Source of the DNA: Methanosarcina sp. KYL-1
GTDB lineage: Archaea > Halobacteriota > Methanosarcinia > Methanosarcinales > Methanosarcinaceae
Assembly: GCF_024372725.1 (NCBI RefSeq)
Contig: NZ_VOUA01000007.1
Span: 1-64,000, forward strand
DNA length: 64,000 nt
Direction of reading: 5' to 3'
Shown piece by piece: positions 13,185 through 55,767 of this stretch. The translations under genes and the position numbers were made by a program. Under the pieces are notes generated by a model. The model saw only the letters and a program-made list of their open reading frames with translations. It was not told the origin of the DNA and did not search any database. Every line of letters begins with the position of its first letter. The stretch's first letter is position 1.

Positions 13185-15107
13185 ATGGCTGATGAGAAGC
13201 GGACATGGAGGATCGTTCCGGATACTAGCGTGATTATCGATGGGCGGCTTTCTTCCCGGATAAAAAGCGGTGAGTTCAGGGGTGCGGAAGTTATTATTCC
13301 CGAAGCCGTGGTATCGGAACTGGAAGCCCAGGCAAACAAGGGCAAAGATATCGGGTTTAAAGGGCTTGACGAGCTTTCCGAACTTAGAAAGCTGGCAGAC
13401 AGGGAAGAAATCGTCCTGAAATTCAGTGGGGTACAGCCCACCATTGAAGAAATCAAGCTTTCGAAGGAAGGCAGGGTTGATGCCCTTATCAGGAGCACTG
13501 CCCTTGAGGTAGGGGGTCTTTTTTTAACCGAGGACCGGGTCCAGTCTATCATAGCAGGGGCAAAGGGCCTTGATGTGGAGTATGTGCCTCCCAAGGTAGT
13601 GGACCCTTCGGAACTGGGGCCTCTCAAAATCGAACATTTTTTTGCTGATGATACTATGTCCGTGCACCTTAAAAACGGGGTCTCCCCAATGGCCAAGCGG
13701 GGCCCTGTGGGAATGGTGCGCTATGTCAGGATAAGGGATGAGCCTATTACATACCCAGAGCTTTCCAGAATCTCAAAGGAACTTCTCGAAAGGGCAAGGG
13801 TCGATCCGGAGTCTTTCATCGAGATGTCTTCTGACGGGGCTACGGTCCTGCAGATCCGGAATATGAGGATTGCAATCACACACCAGCCTTTTTCCGATGA
13901 CATGGAGATTACGGCAGTCAGGCCGACTGTAATTGTAGACCTTGAACAGTACCGCCTGAGCGATAAGCTGAAGGAGCGCATCGTAAGCCAGCGGGGTATT
14001 CTTATTGCCGGGCCTCCTGGAGCCGGAAAATCTACCTTTGCGGCCGGGGTTGCCCGCTACCTGAACGAGCGCGGACAGGTTGTCAAGACCATGGAGTCCC
14101 CAAGGGACCTGCAGGTGCCCCCTGAGATTACCCAGTATTCTCCCCTGAATGGGAGGATGGAGGATACCGCAGACCTCCTGCTCCTGGTCAGGCCGGACTA
14201 CACCATTTATGATGAGGTCCGAAAGACCGGGGATTTCCTGATTTTTGCAGACATGCGCCTGGCGGGGGTCGGGATGATAGGGGTCGTGCATGCAACAAGG
14301 GCTGTGGACGCAATCCAGCGCCTGATCGGAAGGGTGGAACTGGGCATAATCCCCCAGGTCGTGGATACGGTAATTTTCATCGACAAAGGAGAGGTTGCAA
14401 AGGTCCTTGTGCTCGCCTTTACGGTTAAGGTACCTCACGGGATGACCGAGCAGGACCTTGCAAGGCCTGTAATTACCATTGCGGATTTCGAAACCGGGAG
14501 GGTCGAGTACGAGATTTACACCTACGGAGAACAGGTCGTTGTCATGCCCATCGGGACTGCCGTAGAAGGCCGGAAACCCGCCTGGAAGCTTGCTGAAGAA
14601 GAGATCAAAAATGTCATAAGCAGGTATGCGAAGGGCCCGGTTGAAGTGGAAGTGACATCGGACAGCAGCGCAATCGTGAAGGTCCGGGACGCGGAGATGC
14701 GCAAGGTTATAGGCAAAGGCGGAAACGTTATCGACCGGATAGAAAGCATGCTTGGGCTCCACATAGACGTCCGGGAACTTGAACATGAACCTTCAAGGCC
14801 TCCGGGAGGCCGAAAGTACGGGGCTGAGGCCGAACCCCCCTCCTTCAAGGCCAGAGCTGCCGGGCCTGAAGCAGGAATCGGTCCTTCTTCTGCCCACCCC
14901 CTCATCGAAATGAACAAGAAACACCTGATCCTTGGGGTCCCAGAACTTGCAGGAAAGGATGTGGAAGTTTATGTCGAAGACGAATACCTCTTCAGCGCGA
15001 CCGTAAGCCGGCATGGGGACGTAAAACTTCGGAGAATTTCGGACCTTGCCTCCGAAATAATGGAGGCCCAGGAAAGAGGAGAAATCATTGAAATCAGGCA
15101 GATCTGA
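13185..15107 (+). CDS. PIN-domain and KH-domain containing ATPase (COG1855 type)
   Basis: This archaeal protein of unknown physiological role has 640 residues and three recognisable parts. A PIN-type RNase domain (about 8-140) starts with VPDTSVIIDGRLSS and has the conserved acidic residues, including D in FLTEDRV. A P-loop ATPase of the type II/IV secretion (VirB11/PilT) superfamily has Walker A GPPGAGKST at about 276-284. A KH RNA-binding domain near 505-535 carries VIGKGGNVIDRI. This combination suggests ATP-driven RNA processing or a toxin-like RNase scaffold, but that is inference. It is monocistronic, with a T-rich tract downstream. Confidence 0.9.
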   Translation: MADEKRTWRIVPDTSVIIDGRLSSRIKSGEFRGAEVIIPEAVVSELEAQANKGKDIGFKGLDELSELRKLADREEIVLKFSGVQPTIEEIKLSKEGRVDALIRSTALEVGGLFLTEDRVQSIIAGAKGLDVEYVPPKVVDPSELGPLKIEHFFADDTMSVHLKNGVSPMAKRGPVGMVRYVRIRDEPITYPELSRISKELLERARVDPESFIEMSSDGATVLQIRNMRIAITHQPFSDDMEITAVRPTVIVDLEQYRLSDKLKERIVSQRGILIAGPPGAGKSTFAAGVARYLNERGQVVKTMESPRDLQVPPEITQYSPLNGRMEDTADLLLLVRPDYTIYDEVRKTGDFLIFADMRLAGVGMIGVVHATRAVDAIQRLIGRVELGIIPQVVDTVIFIDKGEVAKVLVLAFTVKVPHGMTEQDLARPVITIADFETGRVEYEIYTYGEQVVVMPIGTAVEGRKPAWKLAEEEIKNVISRYAKGPVEVEVTSDSSAIVKVRDAEMRKVIGKGGNVIDRIESMLGLHIDVRELEHEPSRPPGGRKYGAEAEPPSFKARAAGPEAGIGPSSAHPLIEMNKKHLILGVPELAGKDVEVYVEDEYLFSATVSRHGDVKLRRISDLASEIMEAQERGEIIEIRQI

Positions 15108-15316: not shown

Positions 15317-16180
15317 TTGGGTAAAATCAATAAGGGAGAGCCAGAATTCAGGGAAGACCTTCAGGGAAGAATTGAGGTTTTTGACCAGAGCATCCGGAGT
15401 TTTGAGAAGCGTCTCAGGGCAGTTGAACGCCGCCTGTCGCTGGAAGAGCCTCCTGCGCCGGGGGCAGGGTCTGACTTTCCCGGCCGGCTTGCCGGATCTT
15501 TTCAGAATGGGATCCCCGGGGAATTTGCAGGCGAGACAGCTGTTTCTCCACAGGGCCCTTCCGTTTTCCCGGCTGATTCATTTCCTCTTTCCGGGAGTTC
15601 TTTTCTTTCCAGTTCCGTTTCCTCCCTTTCGGAAGGGGATGCTTCGAATCTTGCTTTCAGCACCATGGTTTCTTCTGCAGGGGCTTCGGGTTCCTCTGTG
15701 GTTTTTTTGAATTCCTCGTCCGAAGTCTCCGCAGGCACTGAAAAAATAAAAGAGCTCAATGCCCTGTTTTCCAGTTTTTCCGAAAGCCTCAATTCCCTTC
15801 AGGAAGCCGTTTCCGAGCTTTCGGATTTTGTACATGACAGCCTGCAGCCTGAAATCGAAAGGCTAGGTGAGGAAGTAGAGGGGGTAAAAAAAGAAGAAAC
15901 TGCGGTAAAGGAGTCTGCAGCAAGACTCAAAACCCGGATTGAAGCTGCCGAAAACCAGAACAGGTTCACCCTCGGTTCAATCAAGGTTCCCGTGGAAGTC
16001 TCGGGGGTTGCAGGGGCTTCGGTCCTTTTCCTTACAGGTGTTCTGGTCTGGTCGGGCCGCTGGGATGTCATAAGGTCTCCTTATTTCTCGATGGGGCTTG
16101 CGTTTTTGATGGCTGCAGCTGTGTTCTTGAAGTTTTACATGGTTAACCGGAAGCAAAAATCGATGGCAGTTCAGGAGTAA
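15317..16180 (+). CDS. Hypothetical coiled-coil membrane protein
   Basis: I do not recognise this 287-residue protein. It starts with TTG because the only nearby ATG (15299) hits a stop after five codons. Residues about 10-45 form a charged helix (DQSIRSFEKRLRAVERRLSL). A Ser/Gly/Pro-rich low-complexity region follows (about 50-140). Residues about 140-215 form a coiled coil (ELNALFSSFSESLNSLQEAV and onward). Two transmembrane segments close the protein (about 225-245 and 255-275), with a basic C-terminal tail, so the bulk is probably on one side of the membrane as a tether. No neighbour indicates a role. Confidence 0.75.
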   Translation: MGKINKGEPEFREDLQGRIEVFDQSIRSFEKRLRAVERRLSLEEPPAPGAGSDFPGRLAGSFQNGIPGEFAGETAVSPQGPSVFPADSFPLSGSSFLSSSVSSLSEGDASNLAFSTMVSSAGASGSSVVFLNSSSEVSAGTEKIKELNALFSSFSESLNSLQEAVSELSDFVHDSLQPEIERLGEEVEGVKKEETAVKESAARLKTRIEAAENQNRFTLGSIKVPVEVSGVAGASVLFLTGVLVWSGRWDVIRSPYFSMGLAFLMAAAVFLKFYMVNRKQKSMAVQE

Positions 16181-17301: not shown

Positions 17302-17390
17302 AACTCCGGGTTACCTTATCAATTAACTGTGGGTACTTTACCAATTAACTGAAGGTTACCTTATCAATTAACTCCGGGTCACTTTAACAA
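17302..17390 (-). repeat. Four imperfect ~23-bp repeats overlapping a gene's 3' end
   Basis: Units beginning AACTCCGGGTTACC, AACTGTGGGTACTT, AACTGAAGGTTACC and AACTCCGGGTCACT lie at 17302, 17325, 17347 and 17370. The fourth encodes the last residues and stop codon of the pilin-like protein, so the others look like tandem copies of that gene end. Confidence 0.8.
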
Positions 17391-17826
17391 AGTAATCGTT
17401 TTCAAAATCCCGGTAGCCGGTTCTCATCACTTTTATAGCGACATATCCTTCGGCTTTTCCCTGGGGAAGCTCTGGGTTTGCAAGCCTTATAAGGACATTT
17501 CCTTCCGTATCCGTAACTCCAAAAACTGCTTTTTTCCGGTCCGGGCTCCAGGCAATTACATTTGCCTCCCCTATCCTCCTGTTATCCCTGTCAAGCACGG
17601 TGACCAGGAGGGTCAGGTTTGCATCAAAATATCCATCTGACGCAGGAGGAAATGAAAAAGTGCTCGCGTTTGTTCTGGCATACATGGGTTCGGGTGGGGA
17701 GGGCATGCTGGAAATGGCTGAGATGATTGCATAAAACCCTGCAAGGCCAACAATTGAAAGGACTACAATCCTTATCGGAAGCCCGATAGTCCCTGTTTCG
17801 TCCCCACTGAGCTTTCCGGGCAGCAT
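17368..17826 (-). CDS. Pilin-like membrane-anchored protein
   Basis: This is a 152-residue protein with one N-terminal membrane helix after a short charged leader (SGDETGTIGLPIRIVVLSIVG), then an outside beta-rich domain (about 50-150) with a transthyretin or Ig-like look (ANVIAWSPDRKKAVFGVTDT). The leader-plus-helix pattern resembles archaeal type IV pilins, but I see no clear KG/RG prepilin-peptidase site, so processing is uncertain. The ATG start at 17826 follows GAGGT; an in-frame GTG sits two codons earlier. It is downstream of and probably co-transcribed with the similar gene at 17878 (51-bp gap). Confidence 0.78.
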   Translation of the reverse strand: MLPGKLSGDETGTIGLPIRIVVLSIVGLAGFYAIISAISSMPSPPEPMYARTNASTFSFPPASDGYFDANLTLLVTVLDRDNRRIGEANVIAWSPDRKKAVFGVTDTEGNVLIRLANPELPQGKAEGYVAIKVMRTGYRDFENDYFVKVTRS

Positions 17827-17877
17827 ATGCACGACCTCTTACCCGATTTTTATCAAAAATTTAAGTTAAAGCCCGGG

Positions 17878-18363
17878 TTAGCGGGTCTTTATGATCATTA
17901 TGGCGTCTTTTTTCTCGTAATCATAAAAGCCGTCTGCTAGGATTTTCAGGTCCATTGTCCCTTCATTCTGGTTCGGGTCGAGCCTGACTTTTGCGTCCTC
18001 GGGAGTCGTCAGGACCGTAATCCCGTTGATATCCGTATTGTTTGAGGCCGCGCCGCCGAGGCCCCTCAGGATCACATTTGAATCCCTGACCGGGTTTCCG
18101 TCCTGGTCTGTTACCCGGACTTTTACAGTCACTGCAAAGGAGTCCTTTGCGGTATCAGCGCTTACTATTATTGAATTTCCTCCCTGCAGGCTTCCTCCTT
18201 CCAGGGCGGCTCCGTCCACAAAAACCGACATCTCTTTTGTAGGAGTCGGTATGATCGCAATGAGTGTGGCAAGGGCAACCATCCCAACGACAAGCATAAC
18301 CACGATGTTGATCGGGAGTTCCATAGCTTTCTCATCGTTCCTGAAAAATTGAAATTTCTTCAT
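17878..18363 (-). CDS. Pilin-like membrane-anchored protein with Ig-like domain
   Basis: This 161-residue protein is built like its downstream neighbour. A short leader with NDEKAMELPINIV is followed by one membrane helix (to about residue 35). A beta domain follows with the Big-1/carboxypeptidase-regulatory pattern VRVTDQDGNPVRDSNVILRG and NGITVLTTPEDAKV. It is probably exposed outside the cell. The start at the ATG 18363 has GTGGGG upstream; GTG at 18375 is an alternative. The shared DE...LPI motif before the helix links it to the 17368 gene and, more loosely, to the protein at 51843. The role is unknown. Confidence 0.78.
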   Translation of the reverse strand: MKKFQFFRNDEKAMELPINIVVMLVVGMVALATLIAIIPTPTKEMSVFVDGAALEGGSLQGGNSIIVSADTAKDSFAVTVKVRVTDQDGNPVRDSNVILRGLGGAASNNTDINGITVLTTPEDAKVRLDPNQNEGTMDLKILADGFYDYEKKDAIMIIKTR

Positions 18364-18613
18364 GCTTTTCCCCACTTCTTAGTATTTTCCACAATATTTA
18401 ATGTAAAATCTTTTACATTTACCAGTACTCGATCCCTGTATATAAAATTATTTAATTTTTAGACCAGCAAGTTTTTTTATTGGAAAACCCTTTTATTATT
18501 AAGGGGGTGAGCTATATACTTATATACCAGCCTGAACATAAACACACTGAATATTGCATATTCTCCGAATACTGCATTATTCACATTAATTATGAACGAG
18601 GGGAAACAGTTTT

Positions 18614-49643: not shown

Positions 49644-50341
49644 GTTGATCGCAAATATTTAGCGTGAATCATGTATATTAAGTTGTTTATTATATTATTC
49701 AGTGCAAACTTGCCTTTATTTGTTCTGGGATTGTTTGATCACGAAAACTGATGCCTTCGGAATCCATTCTACTTTATTTTACAAAATAAATATTTTATTT
49801 GTGTCTTGTGATCTTGCCTCAAGACTGTACTTCACCACGGGTCCCGGATGAATATCGAAAAAGTAAAATAGCATGTTTTTGACTACTACCATCCAAAAGA
49901 GCTGGAGAAGATTGGGAGACTTTCGGAATTCCTGTGGACCCGTTGTTTATCAGTCTTTTATCCGTCTCTATCAATCGTTTATTAGTCGCTTATTAGTTGT
50001 TTATTCCTGCAGGGGTTCTACGATCTTTGCAAGAATTTTAGGGCTCCTTCAGGACTTATGGGCCTGCACTCCAGCTAATCAAGAAATATGCATAACGTAC
50101 AGTTCAGCTAATCAAGAAATATGTATATTCTCTATACTTCAGCTAATCAAGAAATACATATATATGGTTTACACATATGAGTCGGCGGATTTGCCACCTT
50201 GAGGACTTAATCCTTCAAATAATCTTAACATGCTTACTTTAAATCAATCCTTAACCTTTAAATAATCCTTAAAATACTTCAATAAAATCCAATCCGTTGA
50301 GACATTCCTTTTAATTCGATAGCTATCAGGTGCATTTAAAA
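49644..50341. other. Divergent gene-free region between cobD and hisS
   Basis: AT-rich spacer with three copies of AGCTAATCAAGAAATA at 50073, 50106 and 50140 (33-34-bp period). A 109-codon frame through it is not credible. Promoters for both directions should lie here. TATA-like runs are near 49682-49700 (minus) and 50154-50165 (plus). Confidence 0.6.
50073..50165. repeat. Three ~33-bp repeats with AGCTAATCAAGAAATA
   Basis: The 16-bp core AGCTAATCAAGAAATA recurs at 50073, 50106 and 50140, with different spacers ending in TA-rich tails. Confidence 0.78.
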
Positions 50342-51577
50342 ATGACAGTCAATAGGCCAAGAGGGACCCGGGACTTTTTACCTGCCGATACTTCCCGGAG
50401 AAGGTACGTGGAAAGCGTCATGCGAAATGTTGCCCGTAACTGGGGTTACAGTGAGGTTATTACGCCCACGTTTGAACATCTGGACCTTTTCACCCTGAAG
50501 TCCGGGGAAGGGATCATAGGGGAACTCTACAACTTCACGGACAAAGGAGGCAGGGACATGACCCTCAGGCCCGAACTCACGGCACCTGTCATGCGCCTCT
50601 ATGTAAACGAGCTCCAGTCCTTCCCAAAACCCCTCAAGTTGTTCTACTTCGAAAACTGCTTCCGCTACGAGCGGCCGCAGAAGGGCCGATTCAGGGAGTT
50701 CTGGCAGTTCGGGGTTGAGCTTATTGGAAGCGGGAAACCTGATTCTGATGCCGAAGTCATTGCCCTTGCCGAAGCCCTGCTTAAAGCTGCGGGCATCAGG
50801 GGCGAGATGAAGATCGGGAACCTTGCCGTTATCCGTACGCTTTTGAAGGGGCTTGAACCCGAGATCGTAAGCAAGATCATGAGGCTTGTGGACAAGAAAG
50901 AGTTTGCAGGCCTGGAAGCCGTGCTCGAAGAGATCGGGGCCGAAGAGAAACTGAAGGCCGACATCTTCAAGCTGATCAAACTGGAAGGCAGGTATATCCT
51001 CCCGGAGGTCAGGGAAATTGTAGGCAACATCCCTGAACTCGAAAGTTTTGAAAAGACCCTTACCCGTTTGGATACTTACGGCGTTGAGTACACCCTGGAC
51101 TTCGGAATTGCCCGCGGGCTTGACTACTATACCGGTATGGTCTTTGAAGTCTACGGCGAAGGCCTGGGCGCCCAGAAGCAGGTCTGTGGAGGTGGCTCTT
51201 ACCAGCTGATCCAGCTTTTCGGAGGAGGGGACGTTCCATCCACCGGTTTTGGGATCGGCTTTGACAGGATTATGGAAATCTGCGAGCTCGAACCCCCCGA
51301 ACCGAAAAAACTGGTGATGGTCTCGAAGCCAGATACCCACCTGGACGCGATAAAGTTCGCAAGCAAGCTCAGGGAATACGTGCCTGTCCACATTGACCTG
51401 ATGGAGCGCAACTTCAAGGCCCAGCTCTCCCTTGCAAACACAATCGATGCTGACTATGTGGTAATAGTCGGGGAAAAGGAACTCGAAGCCGGAAAACTCA
51501 CCCTGAGGGACATGAAATCCGGAGAACAGGAACTTCTGACTCTTGATGAGATTATTAAAAAGGTTTCGCAGCAGTAA
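50342..51577 (+). CDS. hisS: Histidyl-tRNA synthetase
   Basis: This class II aminoacyl-tRNA synthetase charges tRNA-His. The 411 residues show motif 2 [18 protein letters not shown], the histidine-binding [16 protein letters not shown] and motif 3 [14 protein letters not shown], then a C-terminal anticodon-binding domain (about 325-411). The ATG at 50342 with GGTG 8 bases upstream is chosen; an in-frame GTG at 50330 lies in that site. It is preceded by the repeat-bearing spacer and followed by a very T-rich region. Confidence 0.97.
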
Positions 51578-51842: not shown

Positions 51843-52352
51843 GTGCAGGGTTTTGTTTCAAGAGATTCAATCGCAGCAGACGAGTCTGCAGTTTTCGGGC
51901 TTCCTTTCAGGTTCTCTGTGGCAGGCATCCTTTTTGCATTGCTCCTGCTGCTTTCCTCAGTTTCCATCTCTGACTTTCTGGATGGGGCAAAAGAAAGGGA
52001 GGCTCTGGCTGAGATCTCAAAGCTCACAGAAGCTGCCGAACAACTCTCGCTTCGGGGGGAAGGCAGTAAAGTAACTCTTGAGTTCAGGGTCCCTGAAGGT
52101 ACGGCAGTGGGTTTTGGGGCTCTACCCGGAAAGGAAGGGCAGTGGCCGGAAGATGCGAATAATTATTATGTCAGCATTGAGGGGAGGATTAGCTCTTACT
52201 CAGCAGGTGCCTCCTTTTCGAATGCGGATCTGAGGGGGCCTGTGTTTTTCGGTTCTGGCCTGCACAGGCTGGTCCTTTCTACAGGAATCGAACCCGTTTC
52301 AGGAAGGCTTTTCGTGCTCGTTTCCGATTCCGGGGATCCGGAGGGGTTATGA
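51843..52352 (+). CDS. Pilin-like membrane-anchored protein, first of a four-gene cluster
   Basis: This 169-residue protein starts with GTG, then AADESAVFGLPFRFSV, then one strong membrane helix (AGILFALLLLLSSVSISDFL) and an outside helical/beta domain with GLHRLVLSTGIEPVSGRLFV. The leader motif DE-x4-GLP resembles the pilin-like proteins at 17368 and 17878. It probably belongs to a pilus-like or secreted surface complex, but neither ATPase nor assembly platform gene is seen. Its stop overlaps the next gene in ATGA. Family names for such archaeal proteins (DUF7287-like) are from memory and unverified. Confidence 0.75.
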   Translation: MQGFVSRDSIAADESAVFGLPFRFSVAGILFALLLLLSSVSISDFLDGAKEREALAEISKLTEAAEQLSLRGEGSKVTLEFRVPEGTAVGFGALPGKEGQWPEDANNYYVSIEGRISSYSAGASFSNADLRGPVFFGSGLHRLVLSTGIEPVSGRLFVLVSDSGDPEGL

Positions 52353-53080
52353 TAAAAAGAGCTGGCCGGGAAAGGGTTTCCATTCTTGGAGATGAAGGCC
52401 TTGTCGTTGAGTCAGGTCTGGTCGTTGAGTCAGGTCCGGTTGAGAAGGAATGTATGGTCAGGGAGAAACATCCGGGGCCTGGTATTCTGGGGGACGAGTC
52501 TGCCTGGGCTGATTTTCTGCTCTCGAAAGCAGCCCTTATCGTAGCAAGCATTGTCCTCTTTGCAGCCCTCTTTCACCTGGCTGCCGGTTTCGGAGCCCTT
52601 GAGGCCCGGGACCGGCTTGATTTCCTTGCCAGGGACTTCAAAGCTGCCGTTGACGGGGTAGGAACCATGAATTTTCCTGCGGAGCCTTCGGAAGCCGCCT
52701 ATTCCTTTGAAGAAAATGAGGTGTTTCTGGCTTCCCCTTTCGAGAAAGGCATAGAAGTGTATGTTTCAGGGGAATATGTCCGGCTTGATGGCGAATTTGA
52801 CGGAAAGGATTTGAGGGCGGTAAAACCCTTCGCTTTCAGGGTCCTGCCTTTCAATGAAACCTTGCTTCTGGAGAAACTTCTTTCCCGGTTCGGGGTAGAG
52901 GGAAGGGAAGAAAGTCCGCTGCCTGCAAATTACTCGGAGATTGAGGCATACCTTTCGGCCCTGGGGATGGAGGAAACTGTTCTGGATACGGACAAAACTA
53001 TCTTCATAAAAAAGGAATTTATCTATGTGCAGGAAGGGGGGAAGGTTTCTGCCTTTGGGTGTGTCCTTGTCTATCAATGA
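52349..53080 (+). CDS. Membrane-anchored hypothetical protein, second of the cluster
   Basis: This 243-residue protein has a long N-terminal cytoplasmic leader including repeated LVVESG, then GDESAWADFLLSKAALI and one membrane helix (about 58-80), then an acidic outside domain. It shares the GDESA-type motif with the first gene. The ATG start has GGAGGGG upstream and overlaps the upstream stop in ATGA, so translation is coupled. No enzyme motif is seen. The role is probably structural. Confidence 0.72.
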   Translation: MIKRAGRERVSILGDEGLVVESGLVVESGPVEKECMVREKHPGPGILGDESAWADFLLSKAALIVASIVLFAALFHLAAGFGALEARDRLDFLARDFKAAVDGVGTMNFPAEPSEAAYSFEENEVFLASPFEKGIEVYVSGEYVRLDGEFDGKDLRAVKPFAFRVLPFNETLLLEKLLSRFGVEGREESPLPANYSEIEAYLSALGMEETVLDTDKTIFIKKEFIYVQEGGKVSAFGCVLVYQ

Positions 53081-53633
53081 CCCGTTTGCAGCGGGCGTAA
53101 AATTGCTCAGGATTTTTAGAGTTTCCGGGTCCGGACTGATCAGGGATGAGAGGGGCGTACTTGAGCCGCAGGCCGACCTCCTTTCCACGGCGATTGCAGT
53201 TATGGGCTTTGTGGTTTTTGCAGCCCTGCTGTCCCAGGCATACCAGGGGTACGAAGACCGTTCCTTTACCCTGGAAAATTACGAAAGCGCTTCCCTTCTT
53301 GCCGGGAACCTGGCCGGGGATCCTGCCTTCAGGGGAGAACACCCTGACCTGCTCTCGGCTGAGGCCCTCGACGGGCTTTCGGGCCCTGAAGGGAAAACGG
53401 AACGAGAGCGGCTTTTTGCAGCTTTTTCCGGAAACTACGTTTTCCTTGTGGAAATCAGGACAGGGGACAGCAGGTGGGAGTGGAGGATTGTGCCGGATGA
53501 TTCGGACCCGGGAATGTTTCTGGAAGGGAAGGACAGGGTTGCTGCCTCCGTGCCCGTAGTCATCGAGTTAAACCCCGCGGAATCGGTCCCCGGAACCTTT
53601 ACTGTGGTGCTCTATGAATCTGGGTGGATCTAG
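53025..53633 (+). CDS. Membrane-anchored hypothetical protein, third of the cluster
   Basis: This 202-residue protein overlaps the second gene by 56 bp. The ATG at 53025 follows AAGGAA; a GTG at 53061 is an alternative start. IRDERGVLEPQADLLSTAIA precedes one membrane helix (about residues 54-72), and the rest is an outside domain. It ends ESGWI with TAG at 53631-53633. Reading through that TAG would add 14 residues and end at a TGA overlapping the next gene's ATG in ATGA, as elsewhere in this cluster. Confidence 0.72.
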   Translation: MCRKGGRFLPLGVSLSINDPFAAGVKLLRIFRVSGSGLIRDERGVLEPQADLLSTAIAVMGFVVFAALLSQAYQGYEDRSFTLENYESASLLAGNLAGDPAFRGEHPDLLSAEALDGLSGPEGKTERERLFAAFSGNYVFLVEIRTGDSRWEWRIVPDDSDPGMFLEGKDRVAASVPVVIELNPAESVPGTFTVVLYESGWI

Positions 53634-53690
53634 GTAGATTTCTTTGAATCTGAGTACATTTCTTTGAACCTGGGATGATTTCTTTGAGAA
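53600..53690 (+). repeat. 20-bp repeats at the gene 3/gene 4 junction
   Basis: GAATCTGAGTACATTTCTTT and GAACCTGGGATGATTTCTTT at about 53646 and 53666 repeat a motif already present as GAATCTGGGTGGAT in the gene 3 end (53616), with a diverged final part near 53686. Confidence 0.6.
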
Positions 53691-54913
53691 TGACTGAAAT
53701 GAAAATAGATTCCCGCCTCGGGGTGAATTTCGGGGAAGGATGCTGTTCCGCTTATTCAACGGTCTTCGATGCCCTTTTTTTGCTTGTGCTGATCTCGCTT
53801 GCCGGCATTCTGCTCATGCCTTCCCTGCAGGCAGAGGAACAGTATGCTGCAGCCGGGTATGTGGCAGGTTCGGAACTTGACTCCTATCTTCTGGAGTCAC
53901 TTCTCTCCTGCAAGCTGGAAGGCTTTGAGTATGAAATCTCCCCCTTTTCGGTGCTCGGGCTTCCCCTTCCTGAAAACTCTGTTGTTGAAAGCCCTGCAAA
54001 AACCCTTTTCGGAAAAGAACAGGGACACAGAACCTTTGCCGACCTGACGGCCGAAAACCTGGCTCTCTCCCTCAAGCTTTCAAATGATGGTTCATCCGTT
54101 TCCCTCAACCCTCTGGCTGCCGACTACTCCGACCGGACTTCGGAAGCTATTGGGGCCTACCTGGACAGAAAACTGGCCGGCAGGTTTTCCTACCATTTTG
54201 AGGCGTACTGGTATCCCGTGGAAGCTTTTCCCCTGGGAAGCGAACTCATTATAGGGGAGGAAGCGCCTGCGGGTGCAGTCAGGCAGAGTGTGAAGCTTTC
54301 CATGCCTCTTTATACGTCCACACCTTCGAGAGACCCTCTCTTTGTCTGTGTGAATGATTCCGTGCTTGAAGCAGCCCTTAATTCTTCCGATGAAGAGGCG
54401 GCCCGGACTCTCTCCGAGGCTTTTAATGCTTCCCTGGATGCCGCAGCCCTTGAAGGTGCGGGGACGGTTATAGGACTGCTTTTCCCTTCTGAATACACGG
54501 GGTCGGTTTTCGGGGAGGAGGCGGACGAGTCTTTCGAGACCCTGCTCTATGGCGTAAGGGAAGACTCAGGTACCGGAACTTCTCCGTCTCCCGAAGATGC
54601 GTTTGCAGGCTTCTTTGCGGGCCTGCTCGGAACCGGGTTCGAAATCGATCCGGAGTTCAGTCCTGAAAATATGTCTTCTTCCGATTTCCTGCTTCTTGAA
54701 GACTTGCTGGAAGCCTGTCTGGAAAAGGAGATAAGAGGAGAGCTTGAAGCCGAGTTTTCAGGTGAAATCAACGGCACGGTTTCCGCCATTCTTGAGGCTG
54801 AAGACTTTTCGGAAGCGCAGGCCCTCCGGGATGGCCAGGTCGAGTCTATCTACCGGCAGATAAATCCGGGAGGGGCACGAGTAGTCCTGAGCCTCTGGGA
54901 GCCTTTTGCATGA
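53675..54913 (+). CDS. Membrane-anchored hypothetical protein, fourth of the cluster
   Basis: This 412-residue protein has an N-terminal leader with EGCCSAYSTVFDALFL and one membrane helix (FLLVLISLAGILLMP), then a large acidic outside region with several Asp/Glu-rich loops. Two further in-frame ATG codons (53690, 53699) are possible starts. The first is favoured if the gene 3 TAG is read through. The domain resembles DUF7284-like archaeal surface proteins, from memory only. It closes the cluster; no ATPase follows. Confidence 0.75.
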   Translation: MISLRMTEMKIDSRLGVNFGEGCCSAYSTVFDALFLLVLISLAGILLMPSLQAEEQYAAAGYVAGSELDSYLLESLLSCKLEGFEYEISPFSVLGLPLPENSVVESPAKTLFGKEQGHRTFADLTAENLALSLKLSNDGSSVSLNPLAADYSDRTSEAIGAYLDRKLAGRFSYHFEAYWYPVEAFPLGSELIIGEEAPAGAVRQSVKLSMPLYTSTPSRDPLFVCVNDSVLEAALNSSDEEAARTLSEAFNASLDAAALEGAGTVIGLLFPSEYTGSVFGEEADESFETLLYGVREDSGTGTSPSPEDAFAGFFAGLLGTGFEIDPEFSPENMSSSDFLLLEDLLEACLEKEIRGELEAEFSGEINGTVSAILEAEDFSEAQALRDGQVESIYRQINPGGARVVLSLWEPFA

Positions 54914-55308: not shown

Positions 55309-55767
55309 ATGGCAAAAATGCATACCAGAAGAAAAGGTAAATCCTGTGCCACCAGGCCCAACAGAACCGAGGCCCCCGAGTGGTGCAAGATGAGTGCAGA
55401 AGAGGTTACCACAGTTGTGCTGGACCTCTGGAAGCAGGGTGTCGCAACAGCGGAAATCGGGATGATCTTAAGGGACCGCTATGGTGTCCCCGATGCCAAG
55501 CTTGTAACCGGCAAGAAGATCACGACTATCCTTAAGGACAACAACGTCGCCCCGAGTGTCCCCGAAGACCTCTACAACCTTATCGTAAAGGCCCTCAATC
55601 TCAGGAAACACCTCTCAATCAACAAGAAGGATGTCCACAACAGGCGCTCCCTCCAGTTGACCGAGTCCAAGATCCGCAGGCTTGTTAAGTACTATCACCA
55701 GGAAAAGGTACTTCCGAAAGACTGGTTCTACAAGCCCGAGACCGCAGAAATGATGATTACCAGGTAA
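55309..55767 (+). CDS. rps15: 30S ribosomal protein S15P/S13e
   Basis: This is an archaeal small-subunit ribosomal protein (S15P, S13e in eukaryotes) of 152 residues. It starts [20 protein letters not shown] and contains the conserved [20 protein letters not shown] and ends [23 protein letters not shown] precedes the ATG. It stands alone here; the next gene is on the other strand, convergent. Confidence 0.97.

Follow-up and report, generated by a model that had tools for sequence, protein, structure and literature searches.

Archaeal type IV pili of subclade 4F, as described in parts of Makarova et al. 2016 (PMC4858521), use an ATPase whose N-terminal domain is rich in Cys and which is prominent in methanomicrobia, and are linked to FtsZ-like genes; their components include a coiled-coil protein (arCOG07564, described as halobacterial) and a PilA-family major pilin (arCOG02981) that is mostly stand-alone, the pilins being of euryarchaeal origin. 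The same parts of that paper state that motors may act on pilins encoded elsewhere, and that motors and pilin sets mix. The passages cited for Haloferax volcanii report that PilB3-C3 can replace PilB1-C1 and that euryarchaeal motors can cross-complement (PMC6491452), and give pilin processing sites which include DSAV and RAVS (PMC4371748). Here we describe four successive genes, named P1 to P4, of Methanosarcina sp. KYL-1, located in the first 64 kilobases (kb) of contig C7 (the stretch of DNA analysed as a whole, hereafter the window) of a 4.04 Mb genome in 66 contigs. From sequence comparisons, we put the probability at about 0.8 that the products of these genes are minor, pilin-like components of an archaeal type IV pilus of the subclade 4F kind whose genes are scattered over the chromosome.

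A conserved four-gene operon and its signal motifs

The four open reading frames (ORFs, Table 1) are flanked by hisS and the gene for ribosomal protein S15, and each encodes a protein with exactly one hydrophobic segment, close to the N-terminus, as a first-pass annotation of the window had described. P1 and P2 overlap by the 4 bases (ATGA) noted at that stage, P2 and P3 overlap by 20 bases, and P3 and P4 are separated by 41 bases; the overlaps and the short gap suggest that the genes are carried on one transcript. Translation of P3 may start at a GTG at 53061, giving 190 amino acids (aa), or at an ATG at 53025, giving 202 aa. A T-rich low-complexity stretch lies between hisS and P1 (51578-51780).

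A search of 149 genomes of the order Methanosarcinales gave a P4 match (E<=0.001) in 86, and we read the neighbourhoods of all 86, which were of unequal length and several of which were ended by contig ends, using for P1 a profile built from one search round. The order P1-P2-P3-P4 was complete in 76 neighbourhoods, and the other 10 held fewer of the families, with contig ends and broken copies among them; in a separate organism-named scan, 41 of 46 loci carried all four families in order. According to the P4 search and the organism titles, P4 relatives are found in Methanosarcina, other Methanosarcinales, the anaerobic methanotrophic group ANME-2 and Methanoperedens, and the operon as such is also present in ANME-2 and Methanoperedens genomes. 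Because the same four-gene order recurs so widely (76/86), P1-P4 form a real, conserved operon and not a chance assembly.

Immediately before the helix, P1, P2 and P3 carry the acidic motifs DESA, DESA and DERG, respectively, all of which the first-pass annotation had recognised. Its count of three proteins was correct for the KYL-1 copies, the P4 of this genome being without the acidic motif residues, but does not hold as a limit: family alignments show D-[DE]-[RKS]-[AG] adjoining the helix on its N-terminal side in each of the four families, since P4 relatives do carry acidic residues (Asp in the -4 column in 58 of 91 P4 rows). The -1 position of the motif is Ala or Gly in 73/74 aligned rows for P1, 78/78 for P2, 83/84 for P3 and 96/98 for P4. 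Motif and helix together have the arrangement of a class III (prepilin) signal peptide, with cleavage predicted, and as this is the layout of archaeal class III signals, the acidic motifs are best read as putative prepilin peptidase sites. The separate leader assigned earlier was not borne out, as none of the Sec type is present and the motif and helix themselves make up the signal. Two Peptidase_A24 (prepilin peptidase) genes are encoded in the KYL-1 genome outside the window.

Several individual P4 copies are interrupted or are listed as such. In one genome (G110, locus L056, 9152-11526) an opposite-strand ORF of 314 aa, transposase-like by eye, splits P4, and TadC is intact. Many P4 matches in genera g5, g6, g8 and others are listed with one internal stop, and ORFs there, about 390-410 aa long, were read as intact; the stop is probably one near the matched C-terminal end.

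Homology to motor-side proteins and an orphan motor

Profile searches, one of the checks proposed in the first-pass annotation, relate three of the four proteins to families encoded beside haloarchaeal motors. P4 appears firmly to be a remote relative of DUF7284 (PF23955), below scored membership: profile-profile comparison with haloarchaeal DUF7284 gave E=1.8e-14 (probability 98.3, 311 columns), and the P4 relatives from two genomes of the same genus (G104 and G073) score 32.6 and 31.7 bits, above the curated Pfam cut-off, which is 27 bits for DUF7284, DUF7285 and DUF7311 alike. Weaker support makes P1 a putative remote relative of DUF7311 and P3 one of DUF7285. For P1, comparison with haloarchaeal proteins at the DUF7311 position gave E=8e-6 (probability 83.6), and P1 relatives from Methanoperedens and from another member of the order matched DUF7311 at E=1.3e-4 and 8.7e-3 (23 and 17.1 bits, below the cut-off). 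For P3, comparison with haloarchaeal DUF7285 was weak (E=2.8e-4, probability 41).

Within the window there is no gene for a pilus ATPase, a TadC platform or a prepilin peptidase, and the earlier statement to this effect stands in substance for the window, with all three present elsewhere in the genome. A PF00437 (T2SSE) match in the window (13962-14327) was rejected as a pilus motor, as the protein that contains it has PIN and KH domains; such a PIN-ATPase-KH protein could be taken in error for a pilus ATPase. Five ATPase/TadC pairs are found in the KYL-1 genome, on contigs C12, C31, C1, C2 and C4; by eye, the C12 and C31 pairs are in archaellum-like operons and the C2 pair is accompanied by pilin-like genes. 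The pair on contig C4 is an orphan, with an ATPase that matches PF00437 at E=2.3e-20 and an adjoining TadC (TadC_C4) whose matches to haloarchaeal proteins at the TadC position have E values of 1e-35 to 1e-65. We built a tree of 29 ATPases drawn from seven genomes; in it, a clade with 100/100 support unites the C4 ATPase with three further orphan ATPases and with the three haloarchaeal ATPases that adjoin P4 homologues, apart from the other 22. The C4 ATPase has 10 Cys in its first 250 residues; the count over this length is 7-10 for the C4-type ATPases in the four genomes with an orphan pair, 4-7 for the three from haloarchaea and 0-5 for the other 22. DUF7284 was further sought in 294 genomes of the phylum, and 22 loci with P4 homologues outside the order were read: in 16 the P4 homologue stands beside a C4-type ATPase and TadC, one is a fragment of 4 kb, and the other five carry P4 and DUF7286 but no motor within the sequence read. 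FtsZ-like genes were seen by eye near some haloarchaeal loci.

Within the order, the C4-type TadC was searched in the same 149 genomes and found in 91. Of the 149, 82 have both P4 and this TadC, 4 have P4 alone, 9 have TadC alone and 54 have neither (13 discordant), and when TadC labels were shuffled within genus, 0 of 20000 shuffles reached 82 genomes with both (mean 73.1). After removal of 37 genomes, the 112 that are at least 90% complete comprised 75 with both, two with P4 only (G030, G057), five with TadC only (G032, G074, G075, G079, G100) and 30 with neither, and again none of 20000 within-genus shuffles reached the observed number; since shuffles of this kind ignore relatedness inside the genus, these results are not strict probabilities. 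The C2-type TadC, used as control, was present in 140/149 genomes, comprising all 86 P4-positive and 54 of the 63 P4-negative ones. The link between P4 and the C4-type TadC is also supported by decaying copies, with both genes in pieces in G096 and G123, a P4 remnant without TadC in G057 and a TadC remnant without P4 in G100. The resemblance to minor pilin sets that the first-pass annotation had remarked on is thus strengthened by the class III motifs, the homologues beside haloarchaeal PilB/TadC genes and the co-occurrence with the orphan motor, and the neighbourhood survey it proposed yielded both the operon and the motor-side homologues.

That annotation had regarded the cluster, with no known function, as the best candidate in the window for an undescribed system; this was not supported, and the KYL-1 set fits the features of subclade 4F given in parts of PMC4858521, a placement made by features, as the ATPase tree contained no published 4F reference sequences. 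As described there, shared features are a PilB-type ATPase with a Cys-rich N-terminal region, a TadC protein as its partner and more than one pilin with a class III signal; small pilins apart from the main locus and a coiled-coil protein are candidates for further ones. The haloarchaeal versions occupy one locus, whereas in Methanosarcinales the minor pilins, the motor pair, DUF7286 and the small pilins are at separate loci. KYL-1 shares with the haloarchaeal locus DUF7311 - ATPase - TadC - DUF7283 - DUF7285 - DUF7284 - DUF7286 the homology of P4 (firm) and of P1 and P3 (weak), the presence of DUF7286 and the motor clade; it differs in that a P2-DUF7283 match was not found and in that the loci are split, and the P1 counterpart, which precedes the motor genes in haloarchaea, stands directly before P2 in KYL-1. 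The adhesion pili of H. volcanii are alike in having an ATPase, a platform and class III pilins partly in trans, but in the cited passages their PilB1-C1 and PilB3-C3 ATPases are placed in subclade 4C or clade 2 and not in subclade 4F (PMC6491452, PMC4371748). No study of P1-P4 came up in literature searches on the DUF names, on the arCOG numbers or on sarcinarray; the supplementary tables of PMC4858521, which were outside this search, may list them.

Candidate major pilins and accessory proteins

Beside the motor of one Methanoperedens locus (L156) are two small pilin-like genes and a coiled-coil gene, and the candidate KYL-1 counterparts of all three lie inside the window at 15.3-18.4 kb, where the first-pass annotation had overlooked them. 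Pilin A is the best match in its own genome to the pilin directly downstream of the Methanoperedens motor (E=4e-29 and 1.1e-30), and pilin B, which matches the second pilin there at E=3.7e-13, adjoins pilin A in 12/12 genus loci examined, KYL-1 included. The coiled-coil protein matches the gene near the Methanoperedens motor at E=1.6e-19 and a P1-adjacent gene in locus L134 at E=9e-5, values to be read in the light of composition alone being able to match coiled coils, and the Methanoperedens coiled-coil protein has a weak match to DUF7310 (E=0.019). Separate searches of 20 genomes of the genus for pilin A, TadC and P4 found the full set in 14 (TadC broken in G401) and none of the three genes in three; G057 has the P4 remnant only, without TadC or pilin A, G404 (60% complete) has TadC and pilin A without P4, and in G405 (73% complete), which lacks TadC, P4 and the pilin are represented by no more than weak pieces.

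Near P1-P4, DUF7286 was found in 23 of the 86 Methanosarcinales neighbourhoods, and in several Methanoperedens loci P4 and DUF7286 are directly consecutive on the same strand, while in others they are divergent. Over the 149 genomes, P4 and DUF7286 were both present in 73, P4 only in 13, DUF7286 only in 3 and neither in 60, so that DUF7286 tracks along with P4 as well; Methanosarcina acetivorans, a control genome, carries DUF7284 and DUF7286. The gene that follows DUF7286 in KYL-1 encodes a sarcinarray/MAST protein (TIGR04209, TIGR04204), and in loci L154 and L157, as judged by eye, DUF7286 is followed or adjoined by small secreted genes of a similar kind. Locus L134 (3161-6045, genome G156) has four more pilin-like ORFs upstream of P1-P4 on the opposite strand, recognised by eye from their N-termini.

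Table 1. Positions of the P1-P4 genes, the candidate pilus components and other genes mentioned in the text (contig C7 unless another contig is given).
Feature	Position	Strand	Description
hisS	50330-51577		Flanks P1-P4
P1	51843-52352	+	ORF, 169 aa; putative minor pilin-like protein; relatives match DUF7311 (PF23993)
P2	52349-53080	+	ORF, 243 aa; putative minor pilin-like protein; no named family
P3	about 53061-53633	+	ORF, about 190 aa; putative minor pilin-like protein; DUF7285 (PF23956)-related; DERG motif
P4	53675-54913	+	ORF, 412 aa; largest putative minor pilin-like protein; DUF7284 (PF23955)-related
Ribosomal protein S15 gene	55309-55767		Flanks P1-P4
Candidate major pilin A	17878-18375	-	165 aa; DEKA before helix; homology to Methanoperedens motor-side pilin
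Candidate pilin B	17368-17832	-	154 aa; DETG before helix; tandem with pilin A
Coiled-coil protein	15317-16180	+	287 aa; C-terminal membrane segments; probable cytoplasmic partner
PIN-ATPase-KH protein	13185-15107	+	Contains the PF00437 match
Orphan ATPase/TadC pair	contig C4, 23067-27793		C4 type
TadC_C4	contig C4, 25856-27793		Adjoins C4 ATPase; identified by context and homology
DUF7286 protein	contig C29, 673-4830		1385 aa; sarcinarray/MAST gene directly after (to 5423)

Assembly model and competing readings

We propose that each of P1-P4 would be made as a prepilin and cut by a prepilin peptidase after the Ala or Gly of the D-[DE]-[RKS]-[AG] motif, and that the Cys-rich PilB-type ATPase and TadC of contig C4, acting in trans, would drive the freed helices into the base or tip of a filament, allowing P1-P4 to start, cap or decorate the pilus. 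Pilins A and B (17.4-18.4 kb) would probably form the shaft, and the coiled-coil protein, the DUF7286 protein and the sarcinarray/MAST protein are probable accessory or cell-surface parts. That P1-P4 are pilin-like and belong to a type IV pilus system is very likely, their use of the C4 motor is likely, and their being minor rather than major subunits is somewhat less assured but still probable; any given function of the pilus, such as a role in adhesion or aggregation, can be put forward with low confidence only. A more far-reaching version, which we consider doubtful, is a type IV pilus-like machine of Methanosarcinales, ANME-2 and Methanoperedens with its genes spread over four or more loci, where a P1-P4 tip or base complex is bound to DUF7286 and to archaeosortase-anchored sarcinarray/MAST proteins; such a machine would be lineage-specific, kept or lost as a unit though unlinked, and, unlike an ordinary adhesive pilus, would connect cells with partners or with the S-layer.

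Structure models, another check proposed in the first-pass annotation, were made for P1 and P4 and did not settle the matter. The P1 model (predicted local distance difference test, pLDDT, 84.8) has one N-terminal helix of 52 residues (20-71) followed by a beta domain, the P4 model (pLDDT 72.5) combines a long helix (30-78) with a small beta sheet and a region of helices, and both outlines are compatible with pilins. Alignments with VIA-align gave low Z scores: the best for P1 was 3.5, with the gonococcal type IV pilus (T4P) pilin 5vxx_A at Z=3.1 (root-mean-square deviation 5.6, 99 aligned) tied with unrelated chains, and the best for P4 was 6.5, to dynamin-type helices. These low values and the lack of a significant match in the PDB mean that the folds neither support nor refute membership of a pilus. 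As four small-to-large pilin-like proteins encoded in one operon, P1-P4 would resemble the minor pseudopilins GspH, I, J and K of the bacterial type II secretion system (T2SS) and the minor pilins of T4P; the family searches with P1-P4 gave no sequence match to these T2SS and T4P proteins, and the P1 and P4 models no significant fold match.

Several results weigh against the assignment of P1-P4 to a subclade 4F pilus driven by the C4 motor. The KYL-1 copies of P4 and P3 score 22.3 bits (E=1.4e-4) and 20.5 bits (E=7.7e-4) against DUF7284 and DUF7285, respectively, below the 27-bit cut-off; the window P1 has no credible Pfam match and none listed to DUF7311; and P2 has no match in Pfam or NCBIfam and, by profile comparison, no similarity to haloarchaeal DUF7283, which holds the matching gene position. 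TadC_C4 has no Pfam or NCBIfam match even at E 1 and 0.1, and its identity therefore rests on its homology to haloarchaeal TadC-position proteins and on its pairing with the ATPase. Motor genes were near P4 in 0/86 Methanosarcinales neighbourhoods, and five of the 112 fairly complete genomes have TadC without P4, among them three of the Methanoperedens genus (G032, G074, G079) in which TadC is intact and no P4 match is found, and G075, which runs contrary to the general rule in the same way; contig gaps, divergence or real loss may lie behind these four cases. Foldseek searches of the PDB with P1 and with P4 gave nothing at E<=0.001, and since euryarchaeal motors can cross-complement (PMC6491452), the motor partner of P1-P4 may not be exclusive. 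The equation of P2 with DUF7283 by sequence was itself rejected, at a profile-comparison probability of 0.3; P2 compared with DUF7311 and P1 with DUF7283, as a cross-check, gave just as little.

A short pseudopilus-like device for export or surface anchoring of the DUF7286 and sarcinarray/MAST proteins, in place of a long pilus, would account for four minor pilin-like genes of which the last is large, for the linkage of P4 and DUF7286 and for the sarcinarray/MAST gene after DUF7286 in KYL-1. We consider it unlikely, as a pilus needs major pilins and candidates for them show the same gene linkage, no secreted substrate was identified, and fold searches lent no support to a GspH-I-J-K likeness. 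That P1-P4 are four unrelated membrane-anchored surface proteins, brought together by coincidence, is extremely improbable: the window copies are indeed without a strong database family match, but the gene order is retained in several families (76/86 neighbourhoods), the prepilin motif is common to all and loss is shared with the motor. A novel motorless system was rejected in view of the motor on contig C4. Nor do we give much weight to the view that P1-P4 are shared by, or mainly served by, the C1 and C2 motors or archaella, with the C4 motor merely co-occurring. The KYL-1 genome does have the other ATPase/TadC pairs, and the mixing of motors and pilin sets and the substitution of PilB1-C1 by PilB3-C3 in H. 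volcanii, as given in the cited parts of PMC4858521 and PMC6491452, are in its favour; the C2-type TadC, common in P4-negative genomes (54/63), does not track P4, whereas the C4-type TadC does, and haloarchaeal P4 homologues adjoin the C4-type ATPase and not other types.

With P1-P4 as minor pilins of a subclade 4F-like pilus, four hypothetical genes would become parts of a named machine, joined to an orphan motor, two pilins, a coiled-coil protein and the DUF7286/sarcinarray pair. The pilus kind itself had already been predicted, and what is new is that the scattered loci are connected with one another. A reading of gene neighbourhoods alone misses pilus systems that are dispersed over the chromosome. 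According to the cited part of PMC8546582, Methanosarcina acetivorans is genetically tractable, and the prediction is therefore testable. The same operon is carried by ANME-2 and Methanoperedens, for which questions of contact between cells and of extracellular electron transfer arise.

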